DNA of 64,000 bases from Betaproteobacteria bacterium (GTDB taxonomy: Bacteria > Pseudomonadota > Gammaproteobacteria > Burkholderiales > CAIKXV01), in assembly GCA_947458265.1 (NCBI GenBank), contig CANGYF010000011.1, positions 62,001-126,000 of the forward strand. Direction: 5' to 3'. How positions within the stretch are numbered: the stretch's first letter is position 1; every line of letters starts with the position of its first letter. Below the pieces are notes generated by a model, which saw only the letters and a program-made list of their open reading frames with translations, was not told the origin of the DNA and searched no databases. Of this stretch, positions 16,828-44,519 are shown piece after piece. A program made the translations under genes and the position numbers.

Positions 16828-18630
16828 ATGGCAGTGAAGAAGACCGGCGCGAAGGTCGTGCCCCGCAGCAACAATGTCGCATCCGCGGCATCCGCGACAT
16901 CCACCCGCACGGCCGCGAAGCGCCCCGCCGCGAAGAAGGCCGGCGCCGCGCTGCCCCGCACCTATCCGGACCTTCACGACCACATCGCCGCGCTGGGCAA
17001 GGCCGGGCTGCTGGTGACGGTCGACCGGCCCATCAACAAGGACACCGAGATGCATCCGCTGGTGCGCTGGCAGTTCCGCGGCGGCATCGAGGAGAAGGAT
17101 CGCAAGGCCTTCCTGTTCAACAACGTGGTCGACAGCAAGGGCCGCAAGTACGACATCCCGGTGGTGGTGGGCGCGCTTGCCGCCAATCGCGAGATCTATC
17201 GCATCGGTATCGGCTGCGAACTCGACCAGATCGACGCCACCTGGAACAAGGCGGCCGCCAACCCGATCCCGCCGCGCATCGTCGAGCACGCTCCCTGCCA
17301 CGAGATCGTGATCATGGGCGATGACCTCGACAAGCCCGGCATGGGCCTGGATGCGATCCCGGTGCCGATCTCCACGCCGGGCTGGGACAACGCACCGTAC
17401 ACGACGCTGTCTCAGTACATCACGAAGGATCCCGAGACCGGCGTGCAGAACATGGGCAACTACCGCGGCCAGGTGAAGGGCCAGCGGCGGCTCGGCATGA
17501 ACCCGTCGCTCGAACTGCGGCCGGGCATCTTCATCCACTGGGAGAAGGCCAAGGCGCGCGGCGAGCGCCTGCCCGCCGCGGTGGTGCTCGGTGCGCCACC
17601 CTGCATCACCTTCACCTCGGTGCAGAAGCTGCCGGAGACGGTAGACGAGTTCCATGTCGCCGGCGGCCTGGTCGGCGCGCCGGTCAACGTGGTGCGTGCG
17701 AAGACGGTCGACCTGCTGGTGCCGGCCGAGGCAGAGGTGGTGATCGAGGGCTTCATCAACACCGAATGGCTGGAGCCCGAGGCGCCGTTCGGCGAGTCGC
17801 ACGGTCACGTGAACCTGCAGGAATTCAACGCGTTCATGGACGTGACCTGCATCACGCGCAAGAAGAAGGCGATCCTCACGTCGATCATCTCGCAGGTGAC
17901 GCCGAGCGAATCGAGCCTGATCAAGCGCGTGGCGATGGAGCCGCTGTTCCACAACCACCTGAAGAACGTGCTCGGCATCCAGGGCGTGAAGAAGGTGGTC
18001 ATGCACGAGCCGCTGACCAACCTGCGCAAGGTGGTCGCGCTGATCATGGACACGAACACGCCTCGCAACGAGATCTGGCGCGCGATGTACGGCGCAGCCT
18101 CGCTGCACCGCGCGGCCGGCAAGTACGTGATTGCGGTCAACGAGGACATCGATCCGAACAATGCGGACGCACTGCTCTGGGCCATGTCCTATCGCGCGAA
18201 CCCGGCGCTGGACATCGAGATCCTGGCTCATCGGGACCAGGGCCATGGCCCGCGCAGCAAGCGCAACGGCGGTACCGATGCCTCGGTGCTGATCGATGCC
18301 ACGCTGAAGGAGAAGTTCCCGCCGATCTCGCTGCCCAAGCGCGAGTTCATGGAGAACGCGAAGAAGATCTGGGAAGAACTGGGTCTGCCGCCGCTGCGGC
18401 CGCAGTCGCCCTGGTTCGGTTATTCGCTCGGCGAATGGTCGCCCGAGTTCGACAAGGCGGCCGAACTGGCCGTGGCCGGCGACTATTTCCAGACCGGCGA
18501 GCTGATCGCCACCCAGCGCCGCAACGACGTCAAGATGAATACCGAGGTACGCGACGTCGGTTACGGTGATGCGGACGGCAAGGGCAAGGCGGGTTCGAAG
18601 GACCGCAAGAAAAAGAAGAAGAACAAGTGA
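16828..18630 (+). CDS. UbiD-family prenylated-FMN decarboxylase with basic tails
   Basis: A 600-residue protein of the UbiD family, which reversibly decarboxylates aromatic or alpha,beta-unsaturated acids using prenylated FMN. The signature 'EAPFGE' at residues 318-323 supplies the two catalytic Glu, and 'NMGNYRGQVKG' resembles the Arg-bearing cofactor loop. AAGGAGGGGG precedes the ATG. Unusual additions are an N-terminal tail of about 30 residues rich in Lys, Ala and Arg, resembling histone-H1-like tails, and a Lys-rich C-terminus. It is the first of four tightly spaced genes. No ubiX for the cofactor is in the window. A role in ubiquinone synthesis is unlikely given the neighbours; catabolic use is inferred. 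Confidence 0.9.
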   Translation: MAVKKTGAKVVPRSNNVASAASATSTRTAAKRPAAKKAGAALPRTYPDLHDHIAALGKAGLLVTVDRPINKDTEMHPLVRWQFRGGIEEKDRKAFLFNNVVDSKGRKYDIPVVVGALAANREIYRIGIGCELDQIDATWNKAAANPIPPRIVEHAPCHEIVIMGDDLDKPGMGLDAIPVPISTPGWDNAPYTTLSQYITKDPETGVQNMGNYRGQVKGQRRLGMNPSLELRPGIFIHWEKAKARGERLPAAVVLGAPPCITFTSVQKLPETVDEFHVAGGLVGAPVNVVRAKTVDLLVPAEAEVVIEGFINTEWLEPEAPFGESHGHVNLQEFNAFMDVTCITRKKKAILTSIISQVTPSESSLIKRVAMEPLFHNHLKNVLGIQGVKKVVMHEPLTNLRKVVALIMDTNTPRNEIWRAMYGAASLHRAAGKYVIAVNEDIDPNNADALLWAMSYRANPALDIEILAHRDQGHGPRSKRNGGTDASVLIDATLKEKFPPISLPKREFMENAKKIWEELGLPPLRPQSPWFGYSLGEWSPEFDKAAELAVAGDYFQTGELIATQRRNDVKMNTEVRDVGYGDADGKGKAGSKDRKKKKKNK

Positions 18631-41912: not shown

Positions 41913-42989
41913 TCACTGCCCGGTGCAGTTCGCCGCCTTCGAGCGCCGTTCCTTCACCGCGGCAGCCAGCGCATCGAGCACCGGCACGCTGTCTTCCCAG
42001 GCGATGCAGGCATCGGTGATCGACTGGCCGTAGGTCAGCGGCTTTCCGGGCACCAGGTCCTGCCGGCCGGCGACCAGGTGGCTCTCGATCATCACGCCGA
42101 TGATGCGGTCGCTGCCGCCGGCGATCTGGCCGGCGATGTCGTGCGCGACCAGGATCTGGTTCTCGTGCTTCTTGGAACTGTTGCTGTGGCTGGTGTCGAT
42201 CATCAGGCGCTGCGCGAGGCCGGCCTTCGCGAGTTCCACGCATGCGGCGTCAACGCTGGCGGCATCGTAGTTCGGCGCCTTGCCACCGCGCAGGATGATG
42301 TGGCAATCCTCGTTGCCGCTCGTCGAAACGATCGCCGAATGCCCCGCCTTGGTCACCGACAGGAAGTGGTGCGGCCGCTCGGCGGCCTTGATCGCATCGA
42401 CGGCGATCTTCACCGTACCGTCGGTGCCGTTCTTGAAGCCCACCGGGCAGGACAGGCCCGAGGCCAGTTCGCGGTGCGACTGGCTCTCGGTGGTGCGGGC
42501 GCCGATCGCGCCCCAGCTCACCGTGTCGGCGATGTACTGCGGCGTGATCATGTCGAGGAACTCGCAGCCGGCGGGTACGCCGCGCCGGTTGATCTCGAGC
42601 AGCATCTCGCGCGCCACGCGCAGGCCCTGGTTGATCTGGAAGCTGCCATCGAGCTGCGGGTCGTTGATCAGGCCCTTCCAGCCGACGGTCGTGCGCGGCT
42701 TCTCGAAGTAGACGCGCATCACGATCTCGAGTTCACCGGCCAGCCGCTTGCGCTCCGGTGCGAGTCGTTCGACATACTCCAGCGCCGCACGCGGGTCGTG
42801 GATCGAGCACGGCCCGATGATCACCACCAGCCGGTCGTCCATGCCGTGCACGATCCGGTGGATCTTCGCGCGCGTGTCGTACACCAGGTCGGACACCTTG
42901 TCGTCGATCGGGAACTCGCGCACCACGTGCGACGGCGGGGCCAGTTCCTTGATCTCCTTGATGCGGACGTCATCGGTCTTGTGCGGCAT
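41913..42989 (-). CDS. aroG: 3-deoxy-7-phosphoheptulonate (DAHP) synthase, class I
   Basis: A 358-residue class I DAHP synthase (AroG/AroF/AroH type), which makes DAHP from PEP and erythrose-4-phosphate at the head of aromatic amino acid synthesis. 'VVIIGPCSIHDP' near residue 55, 'YFEKPRTTVGWKGLINDP' near 94 and 'DTSHSNSSKKHENQ' near 265 carry metal and substrate residues. The length and motifs match E. coli AroG. The ATG at 42989 has GGAGA upstream. The 176-nt leader encodes a Phe-rich peptide and a terminator, so expression is probably set by charged tRNA-Phe (see the leader entries). Whether the enzyme itself is inhibited by Phe, Tyr or Trp is not evident. Confidence 0.95.
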   Translation of the reverse strand: MPHKTDDVRIKEIKELAPPSHVVREFPIDDKVSDLVYDTRAKIHRIVHGMDDRLVVIIGPCSIHDPRAALEYVERLAPERKRLAGELEIVMRVYFEKPRTTVGWKGLINDPQLDGSFQINQGLRVAREMLLEINRRGVPAGCEFLDMITPQYIADTVSWGAIGARTTESQSHRELASGLSCPVGFKNGTDGTVKIAVDAIKAAERPHHFLSVTKAGHSAIVSTSGNEDCHIILRGGKAPNYDAASVDAACVELAKAGLAQRLMIDTSHSNSSKKHENQILVAHDIAGQIAGGSDRIIGVMIESHLVAGRQDLVPGKPLTYGQSITDACIAWEDSVPVLDALAAAVKERRSKAANCTGQ

Positions 42990-43035: not shown

Positions 43036-43118
43036 AAAAAAAACCGCCAGGCGTTGGCCTGGCGGTCGGTATCGGGTTCGGTATGTTTCAGCAGCGCCGA
43101 TCGATTCCTTCCGCCAGG
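43036..43118 (-). promoter_or_regulatory. Transcription attenuator (antiterminator/terminator) of aroG
   Basis: On the minus strand, a terminator stem of 10 bp (ACCGCCAGGC at 43066-43057, loop CAAC, GCCTGGCGGT at 43052-43043) is followed by a run of eight T (43043-43036). The segment CCTGGCGG also occurs earlier, at 43118-43111, inside the leader-peptide codons. It can pair with the terminator's first arm (CCGCCAGG), forming an alternative antiterminator. A ribosome stalled at the Phe codons would leave it free; one that reaches the stop would mask it. Confidence 0.85.
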
Positions 43119-43165
43119 GGCAGAAAGAAGCCGAAAAAAAACCAGTGGGGCGCGCGCAGGGACAT
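43088..43165 (-). CDS. Phe-rich leader peptide of aroG
   Basis: A 25-codon ORF (ATG 43165, TGA 43088) that is too short for ordinary gene finding. Its core reads 'HWFFFGFFLPLAEG': one Trp codon, then three Phe, Gly and two Phe codons at positions 9-14 (43141-43124). This resembles PheL of E. coli, which also has runs of Phe codons. It lies directly before the attenuator hairpins and the aroG gene, so it probably acts as a sensor of Phe-tRNA supply through ribosome stalling. The Shine-Dalgarno is weak, which is the main doubt. Confidence 0.85.
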   Translation of the reverse strand: MSLRAPHWFFFGFFLPLAEGIDRRC

Positions 43166-43325
43166 GTACGCACTGTATTCGATCCCGGGGGTGTGGCGCA
43201 AGGGGGCGCAGGGGTACGCAACCTGCCGCGCGCGTCAGATCGGCTTGTCGACATCACCCCTGGCGGGCAGGACAAGCAAAAGCAATCCCGGGGGGCGAGG
43301 CGGCCCGGCACGTTAAGCTTGCGCG

Positions 43326-44519
43326 ATGAGCCTCCCGAAATCTGCGCCGGTCGCGCTGCCCTTGCGCAGGCTTGCGAGCCTGCCGCCGCTGTCGCTGTAC
43401 ATCCACCTGCCGTGGTGCCTGCGCAAGTGTCCCTATTGCGACTTCAATTCGCACGAGGTGCGCGGCGACGTGCCCTGGGAGCGGTATGTCGATGCGCTCG
43501 TCGCGGACCTCGAGTCGGTGCTGCCGCTGGTCTGGGGACGCCGGGTGTACACGCTGTTCATCGGCGGCGGTACGCCCAGCCTGTTTCCCGCCGAGTCGAT
43601 CGACCGGCTGCTCGGCGCGGTGCGCGCACGGTTGCCACTGGATGCCTCAGCCGAGGTGACGCTGGAGGCGAACCCCGGCACGTTCGAGCTGGAGAAGTTC
43701 CGGGCCTTCCGCGATGCCGGCATCACCCGGCTGTCGGTCGGCGTGCAGTCGTTCGACACCGCCGCCCTGAAGGCGCTCGGCCGGGTGCACGATGCCGACG
43801 AGGCGAGGGCGGCGGTCGAGGGCGCGCTGGCGCTGTTCGAGCGGGTGAACGTCGACCTGATGTACGCGCTGCCGGGGCAGTCGCCGGAGCAGGCGCTGGC
43901 CGACGTGTCGACCGCCCTCGGGCTGGGGGCGCGCCATGTCTCGGCCTACCAGCTCACGCTCGAGCCCAACACGGTGTTCCACCGCTATCCGCCGGTGCTG
44001 CCGGACGAGGACGGCGCGGAGCTGATCGAGCAGGCGGTGCACGGGCGGCTCGCCGAGGCGGGGCTGGAACGCTACGAGGTGTCCGCGTTCGCAGCGGCGG
44101 GCCACCGTGCACGCCACAACCTGAACTACTGGACCTTCGGCGACTACATCGGCATCGGCGCCGGCGCACATGCCAAGCTGTCGCTGCCCGACCGCATCTT
44201 CCGGCAGGTGCGCCATCGGCAGCCGCAGCGGTTCATCGACACGGCGATCGCCGGCGATGCCGTGTCGGAACAGCATGACGTCGAGTCGTCGCAGATGGGC
44301 TTCGAGTTCATGCTCAATGCGCTGCGCCTGGTCGAAGGCGTTCCGGTGGCGCTGTTCGCCGAGCGCACCGGCCTGCCGATCAACGCGATCGGACCGGCCC
44401 TGGATGCCGCCGAGGCGCGCGGGCTGCTGCAGCGCGACCACCTGGCGATGCGACCCACTGCGCTGGGACTGCGCTACCTCAACGACCTGGTGTCCCTCTT
44501 CCTGCCCGACTCCGAATGA
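43326..44519 (+). CDS. hemW: Radical SAM heme chaperone HemW
   Basis: A 397-residue radical SAM protein. The cluster motif is 'CLRKCPYCDF' with Cys31, Cys35 and Cys38. 'FIGGGTPSLF' near residue 80, 'VTLEANPGTFE' near 109 and 'RLSVGVQSFD' near 139 define the HemN/HemW family. It has the shorter HemW form without the HemN N-terminal Cys-rich extension, so it is a heme chaperone rather than coproporphyrinogen oxidase. The ATG at 43326 lies in the region divergent from aroG. Confidence 0.93.
   Translation: MSLPKSAPVALPLRRLASLPPLSLYIHLPWCLRKCPYCDFNSHEVRGDVPWERYVDALVADLESVLPLVWGRRVYTLFIGGGTPSLFPAESIDRLLGAVRARLPLDASAEVTLEANPGTFELEKFRAFRDAGITRLSVGVQSFDTAALKALGRVHDADEARAAVEGALALFERVNVDLMYALPGQSPEQALADVSTALGLGARHVSAYQLTLEPNTVFHRYPPVLPDEDGAELIEQAVHGRLAEAGLERYEVSAFAAAGHRARHNLNYWTFGDYIGIGAGAHAKLSLPDRIFRQVRHRQPQRFIDTAIAGDAVSEQHDVESSQMGFEFMLNALRLVEGVPVALFAERTGLPINAIGPALDAAEARGLLQRDHLAMRPTALGLRYLNDLVSLFLPDSE

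Follow-up and report, generated by a model that had tools for sequence, protein, structure and literature searches.

A predicted phenylalanine-sensing attenuator upstream of aroG in a Burkholderiales genome and its relatives in a wider family of aromatic leaders

In E. coli, aroG is repressed by TyrR, and its annotation holds no leader gene at aroG. Attenuation is described there for pheL-pheA and pheST, in which a Phe-rich leader ORF is followed by a competing antiterminator and terminator and the signal is charged tRNA-Phe (PMC11802643). In C. glutamicum aroR-aroF (Neshat et al. 2014, as described in PMC4046766 and PMC11802643), a leader peptide with Phe-Tyr-Phe precedes the DAHP synthase gene and is reported to increase transcription under Phe limitation. 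The leader ORF of S. meliloti rnTrpL/trpL begins at the 5' end of the transcript, and leaderless trpL has been proven (PMC7298713, PMC10117765). A uORFC-13-1 motif was predicted upstream of aroF in Acholeplasma (PMC8632094), and two shikimate uORFs with Phe/Tyr were mentioned in a study of five genomes, none from Burkholderiales (Stav et al. 2019). No description of a Burkholderiales or proteobacterial aroG attenuator was found in the open-licence literature, and an earlier prediction elsewhere is possible (notably Vitreschak et al. 2004).

We analyzed the region upstream of aroG in a 64-kb stretch of DNA (the window; Table 1). It contains a regulatory-codon ORF ahead of a biosynthetic gene, an intrinsic terminator between the two, a covarying antiterminator that shares an arm with the terminator, and a geometry suited to ribosome stalling. 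The ORF, the placement of its codons, the competing pairings, and their conservation are evident from sequence and comparison. The region is very probably a ribosome-mediated transcription attenuator of aroG that senses charged tRNA-Phe.

Table 1. Features of the aroG leader region in window coordinates
Feature	Position	Strand	Basis
Leader peptide ORF MSLRAPHWFFFGFFLPLAEGIDRRC, 25 codons (ATG 43165-43163, stop TGA 43090-43088)	43088..43165	(-)	Read directly; kept in all ten genus members
Regulatory Phe codons 9-11 and 13-14 around Gly12	43124..43141	(-)	Sequence, genus comparison, stall model
Trp codon 8 (TGG), not conserved in genus	43142..43144	(-)	Genus comparison
Strand 1 UUCUUUCUGCC, 5' arm of 1:2 protector hairpin, overlaps Phe codons 13-14	43119..43129	(-)	Folding
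Strand 2 core CCUGGCGG (segment 2, CCTGGCGG), pairs in 1:2 hairpin or with strand 3	43111..43118	(-)	Model and family comparison
3' arm GGCGGAAGGAA of 1:2 hairpin	43105..43115	(-)	Folding
Strand 3, terminator 5' arm and partner of strand 2 in antiterminator (stem 43067-43057 / 43052-43042; 10-bp core 43066-43057 / 43052-43043)	43057..43067	(-)	Model, covariation, terminator scan
Strand 4, terminator 3' arm	43042..43052	(-)	Covariation, terminator scan
T8 tract of intrinsic terminator	43036..43043	(-)	Terminator scan, sequence
Putative -35-like hexamer TTGCGC (3/6 consensus), 18 nt before -10	43196..43201	(-)	Sequence; genus comparison
Putative -10 hexamer TACAGT, ends 6 nt before ATG	43172..43177	(-)	Genus conservation; family-wide -10 peak
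aroG, 3-deoxy-7-phosphoheptulonate (DAHP) synthase, regulated gene; ATG at 42989, 46 nt past T tract	41913..42989	(-)	NCBIfam AroG equivalog
Divergent hemW-like gene, other flank of leader region	43326-44519	(+)	

The original prediction described a 25-codon ORF with a Trp codon and then five Phe codons in six at positions 9-14, followed by an 8-nt segment, a 10-bp terminator core with an eight-T tract, and aroG. Direct reading confirmed the ORF base for base (codons 9-14 are TTT TTT TTC GGC TTC TTT), and the remaining elements are all present as described. That prediction had overlooked the 1:2 protector hairpin and the probably leaderless, Shine-Dalgarno-free start. An ORF with five Phe in six codons occurred in none of 1,000 dinucleotide shuffles of the 336-nt intergenic region (either strand). 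The terminator scan returned a single site, against 0.3 expected in shuffles, and the 140-nt leader, at -56.8 kcal/mol (z = -4.3), is more stable than any of its shuffles. The idea that a chance ORF happens to precede an ordinary terminator serving an unrelated purpose could appeal to the 8-nt segment match, which on its own is modest evidence (P ~0.03 in the window). It is opposed by the shuffles and by conservation and geometry across dozens of lineages, comparative data that refute it unless all are convergent, and we consider its probability close to negligible. Viewed through the relatives, the segment match itself becomes strong evidence. One other short ORF in the 64 kb has five Phe in six codons (MFFFFFLRSFEPALPLPSASP at 18626, minus strand). 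It appears to be antisense to the Lys-rich tail of a coding region and was taken as chance.

Ten members of the genus, including the window's own genome, were compared. All ten retain the ORF, the aromatic run, the PLAE/fixed segment 2, and the terminator; the leader start codon is ATG in nine and GTG in the other (L010). Codon variation was counted in seven members whose ORF has 25 codons. Every position varies in codons 2-8. Six sites vary in codons 9-17, four of them third positions, and Phe codons there swap between TTT and TTC; codons 18-24 are invariant. Third-position variation followed by invariance would follow from codon-level constraint on the first stretch and RNA-level constraint on the second. 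Segments 2-4 do not vary in the genus, and the covariation described below stems from outside it only. Conservation of the Phe run and hairpins in relatives, the comparison proposed with the original prediction, was found within the genus and, in a mixed-aromatic form, at aroG of many Burkholderiales, Xanthomonadales, and Rhizobiales.

The leader transcript was modeled up to a point just before the terminator 3' arm is made, with a ribosome footprint assumed, not measured, to reach 16 nt upstream and 13 nt downstream of the first A-site base. The 1:2 hairpin has 11 bp and overlaps the strand 2 core, whose alternative target in the terminator 5' arm is CCGCCAGG. With no ribosome, the model gives probabilities of 0.61 for 1:2 and 0.37 for the 2:3 antiterminator. 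The 2:3 value is 0.98-1.00 with the A site at codons 8-12, 0.60 at codon 13, 0.18 at codon 14, and zero at codons 15 to 22. The regulatory codons thus sit where, under the assumed footprint, stalling would mask strand 1 but keep strand 2 accessible. A modeled ribosome at the stop codon makes 1:2 and 2:3 equal (0.44 each), which counts against attenuation. Antitermination would have to be kinetic, decided co-transcriptionally as in classical attenuators, because in the model the terminator dominates the full-length leader at equilibrium in every state (P34 ~0.97). The 1:2 hairpin is largely kept within the genus and is weak across the family, with 63% of cells paired for the hairpin as drawn in the window.

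From these features we infer a course of events that covers transcription start, translation, stalling, read-through, tRNA dependence, and physiological effect. Transcription would start probably at or next to the leader AUG, and translation of the ORF would begin without the aid of a Shine-Dalgarno sequence. Under a shortage of Phe-tRNA, the ribosome would stall at Phe codons 9-13 and cover or disrupt strand 1, leaving strand 2 free to capture the terminator 5' arm the moment it is transcribed. This capture would pre-empt the terminator, and RNA polymerase would continue into aroG. When Phe is plentiful, the ribosome would run over strand 2, or the 1:2 hairpin would lock strand 2 after its passage, and the terminator would form.

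A short aromatic-rich ORF followed by a terminator was found upstream of aroG at 64 examined loci, which are related by descent, such that counts are not independent events. An automatic rule gave 65 loci, from which L033 (wrong ORF) was removed; a near-copy of L009 was also left out. They belong to the Burkholderiaceae, Oxalobacteraceae, Comamonadaceae, and some Rhizobiales and Xanthomonadales. Leaders include MSAKFYFYFFWHLKPLADREG in Burkholderia/Caballeronia/Paraburkholderia, MTRFFFTTYFYFSDSNLEAVE in Oxalobacteraceae, MSALRAYFFAFFWFPVSGGREASA in Comamonadaceae, and MITVATSYFWYFSYDSSLAAGGSRSI in Bradyrhizobium, and further genera are Cupriavidus, Devosia, Mesorhizobium, Stenotrophomonas, Dyella, and Rhodanobacter. 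A nearly invariant triple runs through the family, made up of GGCGG within the ORF and, within the terminator, CCGCC and GGCGG. The first element occurs at the homologous place in nearly all of 61 anchored leaders, and it lies in frame 2 in 50, frame 0 in five, and frame 1 in two; retention in all three frames indicates that the constraint acts on RNA. A ligand-binding riboswitch was dropped as a candidate, since little is conserved beyond the ORF, triple, and terminator.

Covariation was found for both competing pairings. For 2:3, 88% of cells are paired (16%-49% in slid controls) and 17 cells changed on both sides, compared to 8.4 in shuffles (0 of 500 as high); the 3:4 terminator pairing is likewise supported. 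The position flanking the triple covaries through all three strands, with U-A in 20, C-G in seven, and A-U in one for 2:3 (35 sequences) and A-U in 24, G-C in eight, and U-A in one for 3:4. The mutual exclusivity of segment 2 and terminator-arm pairing, as originally proposed, is borne out by this covariation in the wider family.

Aromatic codons keep a fixed register with this scaffold. In 60 aligned leaders, Phe, Tyr, and Trp crowd into codons -11 to -4 from the GGCGG codon (100% at -6 and -7) and make up 0%-7% of codons from -2 to +3. They nearly vanish from -2 on, which is where a modeled stalled ribosome starts covering strand 2. Modeled stalls at -15 to -5 give a mean antiterminator probability of 0.82-0.91, which falls to 0.47 at -4, 0.04 at -3, and then zero. 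The ORFs were selected for aromatic density, and this selection cannot account for the register with GGCGG. Another possibility is that the main product is a terminated RNA or peptide that acts in trans, as described for rnTrpL/peTrpL of S. meliloti, with attenuation secondary. The outline of rnTrpL is similar, with a short leaderless ORF and a strong terminator at its end (PMC7298713). Against this, the peptide outside the aromatic run differs among lineages, and conservation is seen in where the codons lie and in pairing with the terminator of the neighboring aroG. We judge a mainly trans-acting product to be very unlikely.

A covariance model built from 35 leaders was run against 300 genomes drawn from the order, where 86 full-length hits reached E < 1e-5. 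Each of the best 30 immediately precedes aroG and has an aromatic leader. Among 20 weak full-length matches that were fetched, 14 are upstream of aroG (12 with an aromatic-rich leader) and six are elsewhere. A sample of 370 genomes from the class contained nine with a match, seven of them full length, and four of those seven outside the order. On the AroG tree, leader presence is strongly clustered (13 changes compared to 33.7 when shuffled), and the leader is absent from Pantoea, Enterovibrio, Photobacterium, and Rhodocyclaceae-type rows of that tree. Searches of Rfam 15 gave no gathering-score match for 20 related loci and, under relaxed thresholds, only sub-threshold, unrelated families for the window and four loci.

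The model also matched attenuator-like loci at other genes. Four loci in one family of the order (L154, L159, L160, and L161; about 1490-1760 in match orientation) combine an aromatic leader (such as MITFSAVFNAYFYWYRSSRRLQGASLD), the GGCGG element, and a matching terminator. The gene behind them encodes a ~205-residue protein with no significant Pfam match (one example scanned), making this leader a putative orphan aromatic attenuator. At L151:1499-1690, a leader ORF (MNQNRFAFYGFYWWRPA) and terminator precede a gene for a class I tRNA synthetase of the W/Y type, which judging by its sequence is probably trpS, and the leader is a likely Trp attenuator. At L152 (about 1548-1646 in match orientation), a Leu-rich ORF (MELFIAALLSLLLLSRLKD...) and terminator lie ~360 nt before a leuA-like gene, a probable Leu attenuator caught by the same covariance model.

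The codons in the stall window bear on the signal that is sensed. On average, the genus has 4.1 Phe, 0.2 Tyr, and 0.5 Trp codons in a stall window, versus 3.3, 2.3, and 0.7 in other lineages, and 35 of 63 leaders in the wider family have Phe, Tyr, and Trp codons together. Within the genus, codon 8 is W, R, or F and the Phe run is kept, which indicates that Phe is constrained and Trp is not. Phe attenuation of aroG, as first predicted, is supported in silico by comparison; the accompanying suggestion of Trp input fared poorly, and Trp co-sensing in the window's species was downgraded because the Trp codon is not conserved in the genus. The same attenuator might sense aromatics generally in this species too, through Phe with Trp or any slowed aromatic decoding. 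The mixed leaders of the wider family and the position of Trp codon 8 inside the modeled stall-competent stretch point that way, against which stand the variable codon 8, the near absence of Tyr, and the codon means of the genus. We regard general aromatic sensing here as unlikely. A wider leader family that senses Phe, Tyr, and Trp has probably been narrowed in this genus to a nearly Phe-only codon set.

No Shine-Dalgarno sequence was found upstream of the leader ORFs, where anti-SD pairing averages -1.3 kcal/mol compared to -1.6 when shuffled; the aroG starts of the same loci average -6.4 kcal/mol. Across the family, a -10-like hexamer score peaks 12-13 nt upstream of the leader ATG, and TACAGT, TACATT, or TAGAGT is at the same distance in eight of ten genus members. 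From the position of this hexamer, the window transcript probably begins at or beside the leader AUG, i.e., it would be leaderless. The best -10 in Burkholderiaceae and Oxalobacteraceae is ~31-53 nt upstream of the leader ORF, and these leaders would have a short SD-less 5' UTR. A strict consensus scan calls no promoter at the window leader, and the promoter is weak by consensus. Because a Shine-Dalgarno sequence is missing, translation of the leader ORF, in which codon-type constraint is seen, would depend on initiation that is leaderless or free of an SD in some other way.

In most congeners, the conserved block begins at the -35-like hexamer; farther upstream the sequence diverges, and the neighboring gene differs. 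From this divergence and the change of neighbor, the promoter, leader, and aroG look like one self-contained unit. In the hemW-aroG gap, GTCGACAAGCCGATCTGA at window positions 43235-43252 (minus strand) corresponds to the 3' end (...AVDKPI, stop) of a gene in congeners. That gene directly precedes the aroG leader in three of them (L003, L005, and L006); it is gone in the window, where hemW adjoins instead, which places a probable rearrangement breakpoint immediately upstream of the window's aroG promoter.

The aroG product scores 587.8 bits against a cut-off of 568 for the NCBIfam AroG equivalog (NF006723). No class II DAHP synthase was found in the genome (97% complete assembly), and the second PF00793 match looks by sequence like KdsA beside enolase rather than a second DAHP synthase. 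On these grounds, we infer that the leader controls the only DAHP synthase found in the assembly. A PF00425 search found only one chorismate-binding (TrpE/PabB-type) gene (G000:C11:3922-4680). No similar aromatic leaders were seen in the stretches fetched at pheA and at this one trpE/pabB-type locus.

Placed together, these leaders may form an old and uncatalogued family of aromatic attenuators, SD-less and in many cases leaderless, that guards entry to the shikimate pathway in Burkholderiales, Xanthomonadales, and Rhizobiales. Such a family would read tRNA-Phe, -Tyr, and -Trp in one leader, and each lineage would have adjusted the codon mix, almost to Phe alone in the genus of the window. We give this broader account an even chance. 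It offers a testable view of how the committing step of aromatic synthesis is controlled in a large group of environmental and plant-associated bacteria, by a route that differs from TyrR repression of aroG in E. coli. Because codon identity varies by lineage while the RNA scaffold stays fixed, these leaders offer a natural series in which to study how the codons determine the amino acid sensed and how SD-less leader peptides support attenuation.

Several known systems resemble the window leader in part. C. glutamicum aroR-aroF, as described in the papers cited above, likewise has an aromatic-codon leader peptide in front of a DAHP synthase gene, but it is from an Actinobacterium and has three aromatic codons versus five Phe here; the likeness is by description, and sequence homology is not expected. 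Acholeplasma uORFC-13-1 is a predicted Phe-containing uORF with a terminator before a DAHP synthase gene, but it is from another phylum, has an RBS, and is set beside the window leader by description only (PMC8632094). Actinobacterial trp attenuators share a short conserved triple common to antiterminator and terminator (gGCC-rGCy-GGCC there, GGCGG-CCGCC-GGCGG here), although they belong to trp operons of Actinobacteria (PMC1262725). S. meliloti rnTrpL/trpL is an attenuator of an aromatic pathway gene with the leader AUG at the transcript 5' end, as predicted here, but has Trp codons and a trpE(G) target. E. coli pheL-pheA and pheST share the Phe-rich leader ORF, the competing antiterminator and terminator, and the charged tRNA-Phe signal predicted here. 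Their target genes are different; in the window, strand 2 falls within the ORF, past the regulatory codons, and the leader start is SD-less and probably leaderless. The predicted mechanism is of a classical class; its distinctive traits would be an SD-less start and a lineage-tuned codon mix in a widespread, apparently uncatalogued family.
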